The notes below the pieces were generated by a model. It was not told where the DNA came from. It saw nothing but the letters and a program-made list of their open reading frames with translations, and ran no database searches. Source: Halorussus salinus (GTDB taxonomy: Archaea > Halobacteriota > Halobacteria > Halobacteriales > Haladaptataceae). From it: a DNA stretch of 64,000 nt. Below, in pieces: positions 16,119-47,644 of this stretch (positions are counted from its first letter, which is position 1; every line of letters starts with the position of its first letter). Both the position numbers and the translations under genes were made by a program. Location: positions 310,001-374,000 of the forward strand of contig NZ_SBIS02000008.1 in assembly GCF_004765815.2 (NCBI RefSeq), given 5' to 3'.

Positions 16119-16203
16119 CAACCGAACCGGGTCAGCGCGTGGCCGAACCGGGTCAGCGCGTGGCCGAACCGGGTCAGCGCGCGGCCGAACCGAGTCGGCA
16201 CGC
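16119..16203. repeat. Four tandem copies of a 21-bp unit
   Basis: The unit GGCCGAACCGGGTCAGCGCG(T/C) occurs at about 16120-16140, 16141-16161 and 16162-16182, and in diverged form at 16183-16203. It lies between the PhoD stop and the CHAT protease promoter. It could be a regulatory binding-site array or a simple slippage repeat. Confidence 0.85.
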
Positions 16204-16300
16204 GACCGGCGACCGTTCCGCGCGAAACCGACGTGCAACGGGACCGAGGATTTTTAGGGTTTCACTGAGACGAAACGTACAGTTCCGGAGGCCGCAACCA

Positions 16301-18688
16301 ATGTCCACGCAACCGACGTTCAGTCCCCTGTCCGACGCGACCGGCCTCGACATCGTAGACCCCATCGAGACGCGTCACTTCTCGCTGCTGACCGACTCGC
16401 CGGTGACGCCGACCGCGGCCGACACCGACCGGTTCGCGTTTCCGGTCGCGACCGCGTGCCGGATTACGACCGGTCGCTTCGCGTTTCCCTACATGGTCCC
16501 GATGGAGGTCAGGACGCCCGAGGGCGACCATCTGGCGTCCATCGACCTGCCGACGACCCGCGAGTTTTCCGACGACGAGTACCTGCTGGAACTCCACTCG
16601 CCCATCAAGGTCTACTTGCGAGCGACCGGTGGGATGACCATCGACGCGAGCGACGACGCCGTGGCCGTCGAGTTCGACGGCGAGGTCTCGGTCGCGGTCG
16701 GCGCGCGGTCGTACCACAGTTCCCCGGCGGCGACGATTACGGTCCCCGACGACCCCGAGGCCGTGATGGCGGCGGTGTCGGCGTTCCCGTCGGCGCTGAA
16801 GACGACCAGCCCCGAGCGCGCGTGGCCGACCCTGCGCGGGCATCCTCCTCGGGTCGAGCGCGGCGAGGAGTTGTCGATTCCGGACGCGCTGGAGACCCCC
16901 GACACCGGCATCGAAATTGCGGTGCCGCCGGAGTACGGCCACGTCTACACCGTCGCGCCGCTGGCCTACTACCTCGGCGCGGAGGTGGTGCCCGGCGAGA
17001 CCGCGCGCCTCACGGCCGACTCGGGCGTGAACCGGTTCTTGGGCGAGGACGTGGCCGCCGTCGGCGAGGAGGTCGAGGCGATTCTCAAGCGCGTGTTCCT
17101 GCTGGACTGCGTGACCCGAACCGAGGGGCTGTACCCCGACGAACTCCACGAGCGGGAACTCCTCGAATCGGTCGGCGAGTTCGACTTCGAGGCGCTGTAC
17201 GAGGCGTCGCCCGCCGACCGACTCGCGGCGTACCTCGCGGTGGACGACGACGCCTTCGCGGCCATCGAGTCGCCGTGGCACCGCGTCACGCACGTCGAGG
17301 CTGACCCCGGTCCCGACGCGGCGGAACTCCTGCCGTACGTCGTCAACGACCTCTCGCTGGTCCGGGTCAAGCCCGGCCGCGACGAGGCGTGGTCGCCGAG
17401 CGAGTCCCAGCAGGAGACCAACGAGGCGCTGAACGCGTTCGTCAGGTCGCCCGGCGGCGCGGACGACCGCTCGACCGCGGGCGAGTCCGAGACTCCGACG
17501 ACGGGCGAGTCGAAGGCTCCGGCGGCGGACGAGTCCCGACCTCCGACCGCGGCCGCGGGCGAGGAGCGCGAGGACTTCCTCCGGTCGGCGAGTCTGCGAC
17601 GTTCGACGCGCCGGAGCCAGTTCGACGAGTTGGAGGACCCCGACGCCGGAGACGGCGAGGAGAGCGGCGGTGACGGAGCGGAGAGCGACGGCGACGGGCC
17701 GGAGAACGCCAGTGGCGAGTCGGGGAACGACGCGGACGCCGCGGCCGACCCCGAGGAGGCCCGCGGCGTGCCCGGCGAGGGCGGCTACATGCCCCTGCCC
17801 GAGACCGACGCGCTCGAACAGGCGTGGATCGGCGACCGGACGCCGGTGGAGGGGACGAAGCTCCTCAAACCGGCCTTCGAACACGAGTCGGCCGCGTCGG
17901 AGGACGGCACGGTCGAGATTACGGTCGCCTGCAACGACGAGCAGATGCGGAGCGAGTGGGACTCGGCGGCCGAAATCTACGCCGACCGCGACGACCTGCG
18001 GGCCAGCGTCACCTGCGAGTTCGGCGTGACCACCGAGCGCCTGCGCGACCTGCTGGCCGAGGAGACCGACATGTTCCACTTCGTCGGCCACATCGACGGA
18101 CTGGGCTTCCAGTGTTCGGACGGCGTCTTGGACGCCGCCGCAATCGAGGAGACCGGTGCGACCACGGTTCTCCTCAACGGCTGTCGCTCCCACGACCAAG
18201 GCGTCGCGCTGGTCGAGGCGGGCGCGAGCGCGGCGGTCGTGAGCCTCGGGGACCTCTGGAACGAGGGAGCCGTGGAGGTCGGCGAGACGCTGGCGGGGCT
18301 ATTCCGCCACGGGTTCAGTATCGGCCACGCGATGACCATCGTCCGCGAACACACCTCGCTCGGGAAGGAGTACGTTGTCGTTGGCAGTCCTAGCGTAACG
18401 CTCTGCCAATCTGAAAACGGGATTCCATTCATGTACCATATTTTTCATGAAGGAGAGGAATCTGAGTCGTTCGAGGTCCAGATGTATTCATACCCCATGT
18501 GGGGGTTCAGTATCGGGGGAACTATCGTGAGCTATCTTCCACAAATCGAGAGACATCATGTAGCCATCGGTGAATGTGGAAAAGGAGAGACGACGATGGA
18601 CCAATTCAAAGAAATTCTCGAATCCTATCCTGAGCCGTTACTCGTCAATGGAGAATTAACTTGGTCGGACGTGTGGGCTGGTATTTAA
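16301..18688 (+). CDS. CHAT-domain (caspase-like) protease
   Basis: The ATG at 16301 gives 795 residues. Residues 1-380 are an uncharacterised N-terminal region (strand-rich, then helical). Residues 390-500 are an acidic Ser/Gly/Asp-rich linker. Residues about 510-720 form the CHAT domain, with the catalytic His in FHFVGHIDG (His597) and Cys in LLNGCRSHDQG (Cys628), then VVSLGDLWNEGAV and VVGSPSVTLC. CHAT proteases belong to the caspase/gingipain clan; bacterial members act in defence and programmed cell death. The last ~105 codons (from about 18372) switch to AT-rich codons unlike the rest. GGATTTTTAGGG (about 16250-16261) is a likely promoter element. The stop overlaps the stop of the convergent peptide gene. 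Confidence 0.88.
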   Translation: MSTQPTFSPLSDATGLDIVDPIETRHFSLLTDSPVTPTAADTDRFAFPVATACRITTGRFAFPYMVPMEVRTPEGDHLASIDLPTTREFSDDEYLLELHSPIKVYLRATGGMTIDASDDAVAVEFDGEVSVAVGARSYHSSPAATITVPDDPEAVMAAVSAFPSALKTTSPERAWPTLRGHPPRVERGEELSIPDALETPDTGIEIAVPPEYGHVYTVAPLAYYLGAEVVPGETARLTADSGVNRFLGEDVAAVGEEVEAILKRVFLLDCVTRTEGLYPDELHERELLESVGEFDFEALYEASPADRLAAYLAVDDDAFAAIESPWHRVTHVEADPGPDAAELLPYVVNDLSLVRVKPGRDEAWSPSESQQETNEALNAFVRSPGGADDRSTAGESETPTTGESKAPAADESRPPTAAAGEEREDFLRSASLRRSTRRSQFDELEDPDAGDGEESGGDGAESDGDGPENASGESGNDADAAADPEEARGVPGEGGYMPLPETDALEQAWIGDRTPVEGTKLLKPAFEHESAASEDGTVEITVACNDEQMRSEWDSAAEIYADRDDLRASVTCEFGVTTERLRDLLAEETDMFHFVGHIDGLGFQCSDGVLDAAAIEETGATTVLLNGCRSHDQGVALVEAGASAAVVSLGDLWNEGAVEVGETLAGLFRHGFSIGHAMTIVREHTSLGKEYVVVGSPSVTLCQSENGIPFMYHIFHEGEESESFEVQMYSYPMWGFSIGGTIVSYLPQIERHHVAIGECGKGETTMDQFKEILESYPEPLLVNGELTWSDVWAGI

Positions 18689-18822
18689 GGACCAAGCTTT
18701 GCGCCGCCGGAACCTGCCGCCACGTTCCCTGCCTGCGAGAGCAGTAGCATCAGTGTAAAGAGCGCGCCCATCATCCGCGGGTTCTCTGCGAGCCATTCCG
18801 TGAGGTCTGTCTTCTGTGCCAT
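18685..18822 (-). CDS. 45-aa single-helix membrane peptide (DUF7503-like)
   Basis: ATG at 18822 to TAA at 18685 encodes MAQKTDLTEWLAENPRMMG, then ALFTLMLLLSQAGNVAAG and a Gly-rich end SGGAKLGP. The charged N-terminal helix followed by one hydrophobic helix and a small-residue tail is a recurring haloarchaeal small-protein pattern (ENPRM(I/M)GxLFTxxLLLSQAG), which I recall as DUF7503. It probably sits in the membrane; the function is unknown. It is convergent with the CHAT protease gene, the two stop codons sharing TTAA, and is easily missed because of its length. Confidence 0.75.
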   Translation of the reverse strand: MAQKTDLTEWLAENPRMMGALFTLMLLLSQAGNVAAGSGGAKLGP

Positions 18823-19061
18823 TACAGTAGTATATCGAACGCCGGGAATTATCTAATTTTCTAAATATTTCCTAGAGCAAAAAGAAGATAGAATGTCAGA
18901 GGCTATAACTTACGTGTCTATGTCACGGTCAACGAACTTGGAAGTATCGTCCGGACTCCTCGTTCGGCGCGTCACTCGGCCGCGGGCTGGCAGTAGGCTC
19001 TGAATCGGTAATAATCTCCGGATTCTGGCCACAACCTTATTGTATCCACTCGTTTTCAGGA

Positions 19062-19075
19062 GGAAAATTTATAAG
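19062..19075 (+). promoter_or_regulatory. BRE/TATA promoter of the DUF7504-like gene
   Basis: GGAAAATTTATAAG is a textbook purine-rich BRE plus TATA element, about 37 bp before the ATG at 19109. It rules out the longer frame beginning at 19040. Confidence 0.7.
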
Positions 19076-19108
19076 CTAATAGGTGGAACCTCTGATACGG
19101 TAACAGTT

Positions 19109-19861
19109 ATGACGACGGATAGTTCCACACCTCGGGGAGGAGACGACGGCCCGCCCGACGACCAGATAAACGAGTTCCTCAACGTGCTAAACGAGCTGAA
19201 AGCGACCGGCTGTAACCTGCTGGTCGTCGGGGACGCTCCGCGAGAGGTGTTCACCCGCGCGAGCAGTCAGCTACTGGGAGACCCGGATATACTCCGCTAT
19301 CGAGTGCTGGCCGTCACCGACGCGACGACCCAGAGCGTCGCCGACCGACTTCCGGACGCCGAGACGACGCCCCGGCCGCTGACCGAGACGACTCGTATCG
19401 TCAACCACGCTGGCGCGCCGCGGTCGGTCACGGCCCAGAGCGAGGCCGCGCCGCCCGAACTCGCCGGGATTCACGAGACCTGCGTGGCCGACCCGCAGTT
19501 GCAGGGCCTCCAGTCGAGTCTCGCGGAAGCGATTCAGGCGGTCGCGCGCAACGCCGGGGCGCTCGACCCCTCGGACCTCCGCGTCGGCGTCGATTCGCTC
19601 ACGCCGCTGGTCGAACACCACGGCGAGGAGGTCGTCCGGAACTGCCTCGAACTGGTCGGCGCGTACGTCCGGGACAACGACGCAATGGCCCACTACGTCC
19701 TGCCGGACGAGTACGACGCCGAGCGCGTCCAGTCGCTCGTCCCGTCGGTCGATGCGGTCATCGAACTCCGGACGGTGAACCCCGACGAGCGCGGCCACGA
19801 CGTAGAGCAACGCTGGCACGTCCCCGACCGCGACATCACGAGCGGTTGGACGCCGCTGTAG
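19109..19861 (+). CDS. DUF7504-like haloarchaeal protein
   Basis: The 250-residue acidic protein starts MTTDSSTPRGGDDGPPDDQI. Its core reads ATGCNLLVVGDAPREVFTRA, LRYRVLAVTDA and LRVGVDSLTPLVEHHGEEVV, then MAHYVLPDEYDAERVQSL and DAVIELRTV. The alternating strand/helix pattern looks like a degenerate RecA/KaiC-type nucleotide-binding fold without a Walker A motif. I associate this pattern with the haloarchaeal DUF7504 family; that label is from memory and the function is unknown. It lies 286 bp beyond the small membrane peptide gene, on the opposite strand. Confidence 0.75.
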   Translation: MTTDSSTPRGGDDGPPDDQINEFLNVLNELKATGCNLLVVGDAPREVFTRASSQLLGDPDILRYRVLAVTDATTQSVADRLPDAETTPRPLTETTRIVNHAGAPRSVTAQSEAAPPELAGIHETCVADPQLQGLQSSLAEAIQAVARNAGALDPSDLRVGVDSLTPLVEHHGEEVVRNCLELVGAYVRDNDAMAHYVLPDEYDAERVQSLVPSVDAVIELRTVNPDERGHDVEQRWHVPDRDITSGWTPL

Positions 19862-21200: not shown

Positions 21201-22976
21201 TTATTCCAGTTCGGTCGTGTTGTACATCTGGCGACTCGTCCCCGCGGCACCGAACCGCGAGATGTCCACGTTGTCGTACCAGAACCGCTGGTCGGTCCGG
21301 TGGTACACCGGCAGGAACACCACGTCCTCCCAGTTGGCCTCCTCCATCTGGACGTACGACTCGTTGCGCGCCGCCTCGGCCTCGTCGGTCGGCGCGGGGT
21401 TGTCCTGCACCTGCTCGTAGGCGCTGGTCGCCCGCTGGGCCGCCTGCGTGCCCGACCAGTTGACGTACGAGATGGGCGCGTCCTGCGAGGTGTCGGTCTG
21501 TGGCGGGTTCAACAGTTGCAGGAAGTTGTCCGGCGCGGGCCAGTCCATTATCCACCCCAGCGAGTAGGCCTGTAGGTTCCCTTCCCGGCCCCGCTGGAGG
21601 AGCGTCGAGAACGGCGCGGTCTCGACGTTCATCGAGATGTGCGCGCTCGCCAACTGGTCGCGCAGGAGTTGTGCCGTCTGTTGCCACGTGTCCGACCCCG
21701 AGTAGATGGTGAAGGTGAACTCGTACTGGTTGTTCGGCCCGTACCCGGCCTCCTCCATCACCTGCCGGGCCTGCTGAATCTGGGTCTGGTCGTAACCGTA
21801 CGGGTAGTTCTGCTCGGCGTGCTGGTCGTAGGCGTCGGGGCCGCCGGGGTAGATGCTCGGCGGCGTGAAGTGGTAGGCGGCCTGTCCCCGCTCCTTGAAA
21901 ATCTGGTCGATGACCTGATTCTGGTTCATCGCGTACGCCGCGGCCTGCCGCGCGGGCTTCTCGACTTGCGCCGTGTTGAACCCGATGTAGAAGGCGTTTA
22001 TCGTCGGCACCGCGAGGAAGTTCAGCGTCGCGCCGTTCCGGACCGGCCCGTAGGTGCCGAACTGCCGCCCGAGGTCGTCGGTCTCCTCGACAGTGACGTT
22101 GTTCGGGTTGTAGAACGGCGTCGGAATCGGGAAGTAGTCGGCGTTCCGGTTCATCGCGTAGGTGTACCGGGCGTTGTCGTCCTCGATGATGCGCCAGTTG
22201 ACCGCCTCGACCTGCGCGGGTTGGCCGTGGTAGTTCGCGAACCGCGAGACCTCCGCCTCGTCGTTGGACTGCCAGCGGACGAACTCGAACGGCCCAGCAC
22301 CCACGGGGTTCGAGGTCGCGAACTCCTGATACGGAATCTCGCCGTCGTAGCCTTGGATGTCGCCGACGATGCCCTCCGGGAGCGCCGCGAACGACGTGTA
22401 CGCCAGCATCGGGAGCGTGGCGTGGAACGGCTCTTCGAGGTTCACTTCCAGCGTGTAGTCGTCCACCGCGTTCACCGCGAGCGTCCCCGGCTGGTAGTTG
22501 CCCTCGTCGTCGGTCTCGTGCTGGACGCCGATGGAGTCGAGGATGAAGTACGCCCGCCGGGATTCGTCCGAGGCCGCGAGTCGCTCCCACGCATACACGA
22601 AGTCCTGTGCGGTGACTTCGCCGAAGTCACCGTGGAACTGCGCGCCCTGTTTGAGGTTGAACGTGTACGTCGAGAAGTCCTCGGAGGTCTCGAACCCCTG
22701 TGCGAGTTGCGTCTGGACCTCTATCTCCCCGTCCGGATAGTTCATCAGCGCGTCGAAAATCTGCTGGATAACCGTCCCCGAGGCGGTGTCGGTCGCCTTG
22801 ATGGGGTCCAGCGTACTCATCGTGGAGTTGATGAGGTTCAGCGTCCCCTGTGCCGCCCCGTCACCCTGAGTGGTCGTCTCTTGGCCCGCCGCGCTCCCCG
22901 TAATCGCGACAGCCGATGCCGCCCCGCCGGTCGCCTTCAGGAACGACCGACGAGACATGTTGGATTTCTCGGACAT
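21201..22976 (-). CDS. Oligopeptide-type ABC transporter substrate-binding protein (orphan)
   Basis: The 591-residue protein has a Tat signal (MSRRSFLKATGGAASAVAIT) and no lipobox Cys. The mature part is a family-5 solute-binding protein (DppA/OppA type). STLDPIKATDTASGTVIQQI, LKQGAQFHGDFGEVTAQDFV, NPVGAGPFEFVRW and YHFTPPSIYPGGPDAYD follow the usual order, ending VVFLPVYHRTDQRFWYDNVD. Such proteins bind peptides or similar solutes outside the membrane and pass them to an ABC permease. No permease or ATPase gene is nearby. A TATA-like element (minus strand GCATTATAAATAATT, about 23010-23025) gives a short leader. Confidence 0.92.
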   Translation of the reverse strand: MSEKSNMSRRSFLKATGGAASAVAITGSAAGQETTTQGDGAAQGTLNLINSTMSTLDPIKATDTASGTVIQQIFDALMNYPDGEIEVQTQLAQGFETSEDFSTYTFNLKQGAQFHGDFGEVTAQDFVYAWERLAASDESRRAYFILDSIGVQHETDDEGNYQPGTLAVNAVDDYTLEVNLEEPFHATLPMLAYTSFAALPEGIVGDIQGYDGEIPYQEFATSNPVGAGPFEFVRWQSNDEAEVSRFANYHGQPAQVEAVNWRIIEDDNARYTYAMNRNADYFPIPTPFYNPNNVTVEETDDLGRQFGTYGPVRNGATLNFLAVPTINAFYIGFNTAQVEKPARQAAAYAMNQNQVIDQIFKERGQAAYHFTPPSIYPGGPDAYDQHAEQNYPYGYDQTQIQQARQVMEEAGYGPNNQYEFTFTIYSGSDTWQQTAQLLRDQLASAHISMNVETAPFSTLLQRGREGNLQAYSLGWIMDWPAPDNFLQLLNPPQTDTSQDAPISYVNWSGTQAAQRATSAYEQVQDNPAPTDEAEAARNESYVQMEEANWEDVVFLPVYHRTDQRFWYDNVDISRFGAAGTSRQMYNTTELE

Positions 22977-46522: not shown

Positions 46523-47644
46523 TTAACTCTCCGGTGGTATCGAGTCATCTGAATCTTTTTTCTTTGTTGTTGCTATCAATTGTAGAACTTCGTTAACTCC
46601 TGCCACAAGGAGCCGGTCAGAAAAACCAGCAACAAATGCAACCGCAAGTATAAATCCAGTAGTCATAAACCGGGTAGACAAAATTCCGGACATAATCACA
46701 ATATAAAAGAACATAGCTGCGACGCCTCCGACAAGAATTCTAGCTGTTACAAGACGGAAAGCTATACTCAATTGTGGAGAACCAAAATCAGGGCTGATTT
46801 CGAAAACTTGATTTGACCATGTGCGTATATTATTTACGACCGATCCTAATAGCCCAAATAAGAATACTAAAACGAAAAATATATTATTATTTAATAGAGG
46901 CGAATAATTTAGGTTTGGTGGGCAGTTCTCTAAACCACTCGTTCCAATTATACAACTTAAATCATTAAATCGTTGAGGAGCAGCTAAAATAAGTAGAAAA
47001 AACGAAGATATAAATAAAGTAAGTAATATTATAAAGATTGAGAGAAGAGATTTAATTGTTGTAATTGCTTCTAGCTCATGAACAACCGGTTCGTAAGCTC
47101 GTTGATATTTTGACCTAAGTTCCTCGGGCGAAATATCGTCTTTAAGCTCTCCAGAGTTGAATAAACTTTCAGTTAGTTCTTTAACCTCGTCCTTATCATA
47201 ATATGCAGCTGCAATTTGTGGAACTTGCTTGGCAAACGACTCTAATTTTGAATGATCTTCTATTATTTTCTCATCTAGATATTTAAATATGTATACTTTT
47301 TCTTCTGTTGACTTATAGAAATATCTAAGCGAAGACAAATAATCACCGGATTCCAGTGCAGCATCTGCCCATCGAAGAAAGCGCCTTGCCGTTTCTATAG
47401 CATTTTTTGCTTTTTCTTTAGAAGAATTATCTTGGTTATTGTCAAGTAGAACCTCATATCGCCTCAGCTCCTGTCGGTAAGAAATAATTGATGTTTCTAA
47501 ATGTCTTCCTAGCCGTTGATCGCTCTTTAGTATTTCATGTTCTCGTGGCTCTTGCTCAGAGGTTTCATTATCCAATAGGGAGTCTAAGAGTTTATCCAGT
47601 AATTGAGTAGAGCCATTTCCACCATTTGATTGGTCATCTGTCAT
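46523..47644 (-). CDS. Low-GC accessory membrane protein with coiled coil and four helices
   Basis: The 373-residue product is encoded with AT-rich codons (AAT, ATA, TTA, AAA) utterly unlike the neighbouring genes, a strong sign of recent acquisition. Residues 1-190 are charged and helical (YRQELRRYEVLLDNNQDN, RFLRWADAALESGDYLSSLR, YFYKSTEEKVYIFKYLDEKI). Four membrane helices follow (about 198-222, 250-268, 295-320, 325-348). The last contains FVAGFSDRLLVAGVNEVL, reminiscent of bacterial membrane proteins with an AGFSERL motif. I do not recognise the family. The Lys/Asn-rich composition contrasts with the acidic host proteome. A function in defence or signalling is possible but unsupported. 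Confidence 0.85.
   Translation of the reverse strand: MTDDQSNGGNGSTQLLDKLLDSLLDNETSEQEPREHEILKSDQRLGRHLETSIISYRQELRRYEVLLDNNQDNSSKEKAKNAIETARRFLRWADAALESGDYLSSLRYFYKSTEEKVYIFKYLDEKIIEDHSKLESFAKQVPQIAAAYYDKDEVKELTESLFNSGELKDDISPEELRSKYQRAYEPVVHELEAITTIKSLLSIFIILLTLFISSFFLLILAAPQRFNDLSCIIGTSGLENCPPNLNYSPLLNNNIFFVLVFLFGLLGSVVNNIRTWSNQVFEISPDFGSPQLSIAFRLVTARILVGGVAAMFFYIVIMSGILSTRFMTTGFILAVAFVAGFSDRLLVAGVNEVLQLIATTKKKDSDDSIPPES

Follow-up and report, generated by a model that had tools for sequence, protein, structure and literature searches.

Background

Cell death and immunity have CHAT and caspase proteases at their root. Among the described systems, those closest to the locus studied here join such a protease to a dedicated partner. 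In Csx29-Csx30 (Craspase) and in the SAVED-CHAT/caspase systems, this partner is adjacent to the protease, while separase, which belongs to clan CD and has a related fold (Z about 17), has a dedicated bound controlling protein, securin. We analysed a window of 64,000 nucleotides from the haloarchaeon Halorussus salinus (contig NZ_SBIS02000008.1, positions 310,001 to 374,000), in which the gene of a CHAT protease (clan CD, caspase/separase-like; positions 16301–18688 of the window, forward strand, 795 aa, stop TAA at 18686–18688) stands tail-to-tail with the gene of a small DUF7503 peptide (18685–18822, reverse strand, 45 aa, stop TAA read from 18685–18687). The locus shares with Craspase and SAVED-CHAT the catalytic fold and the adjacent partner, but no CRISPR, Cas7-11 or SAVED part was seen, the N-terminal part of the CHAT protein is beta-rich in the model with no array of tetratricopeptide repeats (TPR), and the partner is a 45-aa peptide ending in Gly-Pro and encoded on the opposite strand. 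It also differs from separase-securin, since securin is a long disordered pseudosubstrate, to which no sequence relation of the peptide was seen and none was searched for.

Two peptide systems also invite comparison. The multi-copy precursors of yeast alpha-factor carry several identical short units per chain and a conserved spacer, as do the repeat forms of the peptide described below, although these arrays lack known processing sites or an export signal. RRNPP signalling (PMC10075063) likewise places the gene of a small signal-peptide-like precursor, whose functional part is C-terminal, beside the gene of a putative cytosolic receptor. In contrast to the RRNPP receptors, which are TPR peptide receptors of 250–500 aa, the CHAT protein has 795 aa and no TPR in its model; moreover, the two genes are convergent, the helix of the peptide is conserved and the system is archaeal. 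The window peptide is a clear member of DUF7503 (Pfam PF24335), for which Pfam lists no function; it was the present analysis that revealed its pairing with CHAT, its Gly-Pro end and its repeat form. Our literature search returned no paper on DUF7503, on DUF7504 or on the CHAT domain together with haloarchaea or Haloferax volcanii, which does not imply absence from all literature.

Results

The CHAT protease, the small peptide encoded tail-to-tail with it and, often, a DUF7504 protein of KaiC fold constitute a conserved haloarchaeal module. Indeed, the genome of the window has 11 CHAT paralogues, 10 of which have a tail-to-tail membrane peptide of 44–57 aa within a few bases of the CHAT stop, and all 10 of these peptides end in Gly-Pro. 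Family-wide, 134 of the 140 DUF7503 matches in 28 genomes face a CHAT gene (107 seen among the matches listed and 27 obtained by fetching the remaining loci), and in the other families of the class the top loci were all paired (30/30), every peptide having the Gly-Pro end. Many loci were fetched by the peptide, and the fair sample is formed by 80 loci fetched by the protease alone: 74 have the peptide, 69 with the Gly-Pro end, and in one further locus the peptide lies 318 bases away. At class level, among the matches listed for 145 genomes, both families occur in 120 of them, CHAT only in 11, neither in 14 and DUF7503 only in none (Fisher p 4e-13). Note that for at least four of the 11 CHAT-only genomes the partner was missed by Pfam (L233, L234, L252 and the G149 loci), and that CHATs without a DUF7503 match often have a diverged peptide, likewise ending in Gly-Pro. 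In the phylum sample, the peptide was found only in the haloarchaeal order of the window genome; Haloferax volcanii has a DUF7503 match. The first-pass annotation of the window had allowed that the link might be incidental and had asked whether related genomes keep the peptide beside CHAT; an incidental neighbourhood is contradicted by the counts in the family, the class and the CHAT-fetched set and by the Fisher test, and the random arrangement without co-occurrence that was looked for across genomes did not appear.

Several loci depart from the common arrangement. The pair at L055 (G003:C1:1704900-1711000), counted among the 134, shows joint decay, with a CHAT gene broken over several frames and a peptide that is cut short. 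In the tree, most peptide-less CHATs belong to two groups (L020, L216, L217 and L199; L075, L077 and L186), and they may have another partner, since several keep DUF7504 upstream. A distant CHAT group in genomes G135 and G149 (L252, L255, L261-L269), with up to 11 matches in one genome, has tail-to-tail membrane peptides with longer tails, several of them ending in GP or GPxNP.

In the window, both stop codons overlap in TTAA (18685–18688), in agreement with the first-pass description of a 45-aa single-helix membrane peptide sharing its stop codons with CHAT on the opposite strand. This is the commonest arrangement (42 of 172 pairs); the median stop-to-stop offset is +4, and 121/172 pairs lie within −15 to +10. 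Such proximity would be expected if convergent transcription itself were conserved for antisense control, the peptide being secondary, which we regard as highly improbable: offsets reach 209 bases, and in the repeat units described below the amino acids are retained despite divergence at synonymous sites. In addition, the Gly-Pro end is encoded by all four Gly codons and all four Pro codons and is therefore selected at the protein level. A nucleotide-level constraint on this end was rejected by this codon use and by the ratio of nonsynonymous to synonymous differences per site (pN/pS) in the arrays.

The window peptide matches PF24335 with an E-value of 2.9e-21 and 75.2 bits (gathering cut-off 27) and comprises, from N to C terminus, a charged part with NPRMMG, one hydrophobic helix, a VAA (AxA-type) motif, a variable tail and the Gly-Pro end. 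The codons of the C-terminal tail, GSGGAKLGP, occupy 18688–18714 on the reverse strand and presumably encode the functional unit. Across 166 distinct peptides, the consensus reads as a charged N-terminal part, H/N-P-R/K-M-x-G, the helix, Q-A-G, A/V-x-A, a short neutral variable stretch and G-P. The tail evolves faster than the core, with a pN/pS of 0.28–0.65 (above that of the core), values at which, with synonymous sites near saturation, positive selection is not shown. Synonymous differences per site (pS) are themselves lower in the core (0.25–0.5) than in the tail (0.68–0.89) in several genera. At locus L130 (G039:C1:486534-486796), two near-identical DUF7503 peptides stand in tandem beside one CHAT.

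The part of the peptide that matters is best seen in one genus of the same order (g44, 12 species), reached through two genomes that lacked a DUF7503 match in spite of a strong CHAT. Three of the 12 species have the ordinary helix peptide (e.g., MSESDSGTVATYLKNNPRMMGVLFTMLLLLSQAGTVAAGNSGAISGP), whereas the other nine keep an orthologous CHAT and the stop overlap, with a partner protein that has no hydrophobic helix and 2–14 tandem copies of the tail. These partner proteins have an N terminus similar to that of the helix form, followed by units such as GNGGGISGP, with spacers such as YTAD or MNAD that are conserved as xTAD or xNAD. In each of the eight arrays examined, all nonamers have the same amino acid sequence, at a pS between units of 0.19–0.54, and the nonamer differs from one species to another; identity maintained despite synonymous divergence implies selection at the protein level on every unit. 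One array (L244) is interrupted by a stretch of N. Within the genus, the form of the peptide must have changed at least two to three times, and the repeat form was absent from all other genera among the 86 sampled. Because nine species keep CHAT and the stop overlap but exchange the helix for tail copies, the tail is presumed to be the essential part of the peptide and the helix a replaceable one.

A replaceable helix also argues against a pore-forming toxin. The first-pass annotation had considered a toxic effector in abortive defence, that is, a membrane-disrupting peptide released or restrained by CHAT; the window peptide is indeed small with a single helix, and bacterial gasdermin and related systems have pore formers under the control of CHAT/caspase proteases. 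Nevertheless, nine species have a partner without any hydrophobic helix, the conserved features are located at the tail, and the module is near-universal, single-copy per genome in many genera and not island-like. PADLOC, a library of defence-system profiles, gave no match at the locus, the defence role having been examined by profile libraries only. A toxin thus appears very improbable, while the two other roles named in that annotation, substrate or regulator, stay candidates and are favoured.

The main rival to the ligand or tag reading set out in the Discussion is a secreted pheromone, since the AxA motif is of signal-peptide type. According to this explanation, the helix would be a Sec-type signal peptide that signal peptidase cuts after AxA. 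The released tail of 6–10 aa ending in Gly-Pro would be an extracellular pheromone that, in the manner of RRNPP systems, comes back to CHAT or DUF7504 as its cytosolic receptor, and the arrays would be multi-copy precursors comparable to those of alpha-factor. The AxA motif and the charge pattern of the peptide would suit a propeptide with a Sec signal: position −1 is A/G in 151/166 peptides and position −3 A/V in 145/166, and Lys and Arg make up 385 of 2893 residues N-terminal of the helix vs 31 of 1667 C-terminal of it, which suggests for the helix form an N terminus inside and a tail outside. The fast evolution of the tail, the tandem forms with their conserved spacer and the adjacency of putative receptor and precursor genes point the same way. 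Against this, ordinary signal peptides are much less conserved than the helix and the HPRMMG segment, no signal peptide is visible in the repeat forms, a TPR receptor is missing, and neither exporters nor oligopeptide transporters recur beside the pair. An oligopeptide transporter was rejected as a part of the module, the SBP_bac_5 gene of the window (21204–22976) being an incidental neighbour. We therefore hold the pheromone to be possible and rather unlikely.

The open reading frame of the protease and its catalytic residues His597 and Cys628, as first annotated, were confirmed. The protein is organised into a beta-rich N-terminal domain (~1–148), an alpha/beta region (~149–381), a disordered acidic linker (~382–480), the catalytic CHAT domain (~530–703) and a C-terminal extension (~704–795). 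H593, G596, H597, N626, C628 and S630 are found in 79/79 aligned homologues, in HxxGH and NxCxS contexts. In the AlphaFold (AF2) model (predicted template-modelling score, pTM, 0.85), the catalytic domain is of the CHAT/separase/gingipain type; Foldseek relates the model to separase and SAVED-CHAT (E about 1e-7), and VIA-align gives Z 18.9 to SAVED-CHAT (8tl0; root-mean-square deviation 2.2 over 169 residues), 19.9 to RgpB, 17.3 to separase and about 14 to Csx29. The model confirms a caspase-like CHAT fold and hence a predicted peptidase, in a sequence too divergent to match any profile of Pfam, NCBIfam or PADLOC; a sequence search of the PDB matched no solved relative either, and some plasmid relatives carry the annotation CHAT or caspase family. 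The fold lists were filled by matches to the catalytic domain and gave no separate match for the beta-rich N-terminal part. No relative was found among viral contigs, and a viral origin of the module was rejected on this basis.

Asp546, which lies 51 residues N-terminal of the catalytic His and is kept in 76/79 homologues, occupies what we take to be the place of the S1 aspartate of RgpB. The S1 pocket of CHAT thus probably carries this aspartate, so that a basic P1 residue is expected. This would suit a direct substrate, namely that CHAT cuts the peptide (e.g., at the conserved H/N-P-R/K that immediately precedes the helix) and that the pieces act: the dyad is invariant and R/K precedes the helix in 155/166 peptides. 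In contrast, membrane topology also explains this basic residue, and the repeat forms lack both the site and any Lys or Arg between units, yet keep the tail, which speaks against CHAT itself cutting between units. A direct substrate consequently seems unlikely, and the basic P1 implied by Asp546, together with these arrays, is the reason for preferring a ligand. A basal, caspase-4-like activity has been described in Haloferax volcanii, its gene then being unidentified (PMC3615174); as the S1 pocket of CHAT looks acidic, the two are probably not the same enzyme.

The third member of the module, DUF7504 (PF24336), is encoded in the window at 19109–19861 on the forward strand (250 aa; profile match 19109–19858, 154.6 bits, gathering cut-off 27) and elsewhere usually lies directly upstream of CHAT. 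Its model (pTM 0.85) has the KaiC/RecA fold, degenerate in that the Walker A lysine is missing in the alignment. Across genera, no other family keeps a constant position next to the pair. DUF7504 adjoins the pair in 67 of 106 loci, a count that takes in a few distant relatives (in 46 it immediately precedes CHAT on the CHAT strand and in 21 it lies just beyond the peptide); no recurrent Cas neighbour was found.

Other features of the window concern its composition. The guanine-cytosine content falls from ~0.70 to 0.47–0.52 at the 3′ end of CHAT and stays low through the peptide gene (18300–19100), for which recombination of the 3′ module is a possible explanation. A 21-bp tandem repeat of about four copies lies between the PhoD gene and the CHAT start (16122–16208). 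In a further region of low content (0.476), the gene at 46523–47644 encodes a 373-aa protein with hydrophobic, probably membrane, segments and was probably acquired.

Discussion

Taken together, the partner is conserved only in a short C-terminal tail, is matched to its species and is multiplied when the anchor is lost, and for these reasons we favour, at roughly even chances, the reading in which the tail ending in Gly-Pro serves its own CHAT as a cognate ligand or recognition tag and determines the state of the protease. The tail would bind its own CHAT protein, and binding would inhibit or activate the protease or lead to cutting of the tail itself. The helix would place the tail at the membrane or pass it through, and many tail copies on a soluble chain would do the same job as one membrane-anchored tail. 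Paralogous pairs with different tails would form separate channels, and DUF7504 may be a second input. Tail distance correlates better with distance in the CHAT domain (r 0.35) than with distance in the core of the peptide itself (r 0.19), a comparison that is suggestive only because shared descent confounds it.

Several observations weigh against the ligand or tag reading. The Gly-Pro end is lacking in 10 of the 172 peptides, and for about 20 CHATs of the family no peptide could be detected, so that the protease can exist alone. In the helix form the tail is predicted to lie outside, and no export signal was seen by eye on CHAT or is visible on the repeat forms, which leaves a cytosolic protease with no evident way to meet the tail. 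Pairing is directly observed, while we infer binding, cleavage and phenotype.

The wider proposal, of a peptide-ligand system in archaea in which each CHAT has its own peptide ending in Gly-Pro, presented through a membrane or signal helix or a multi-copy chain, with paralogous pairs as separate channels controlling a caspase-like protease, falls somewhat short of even chances.

Conclusions

The genes behind caspase-like functions in haloarchaea are an open question on which this module bears. The protease occurs in 131 of the 145 sampled genomes (among the matches listed), that is, in most haloarchaea, laboratory species included, and the module offers it an obvious minimal partner. That some species have one tail anchored in the membrane and others many copies on a soluble chain amounts to a natural experiment on which part of this partner matters, and its outcome suggests that the tail is a dedicated signal or handle by which the protease is addressed. 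If this is true, it would represent a specific peptide signal or protease-control tag in archaea.
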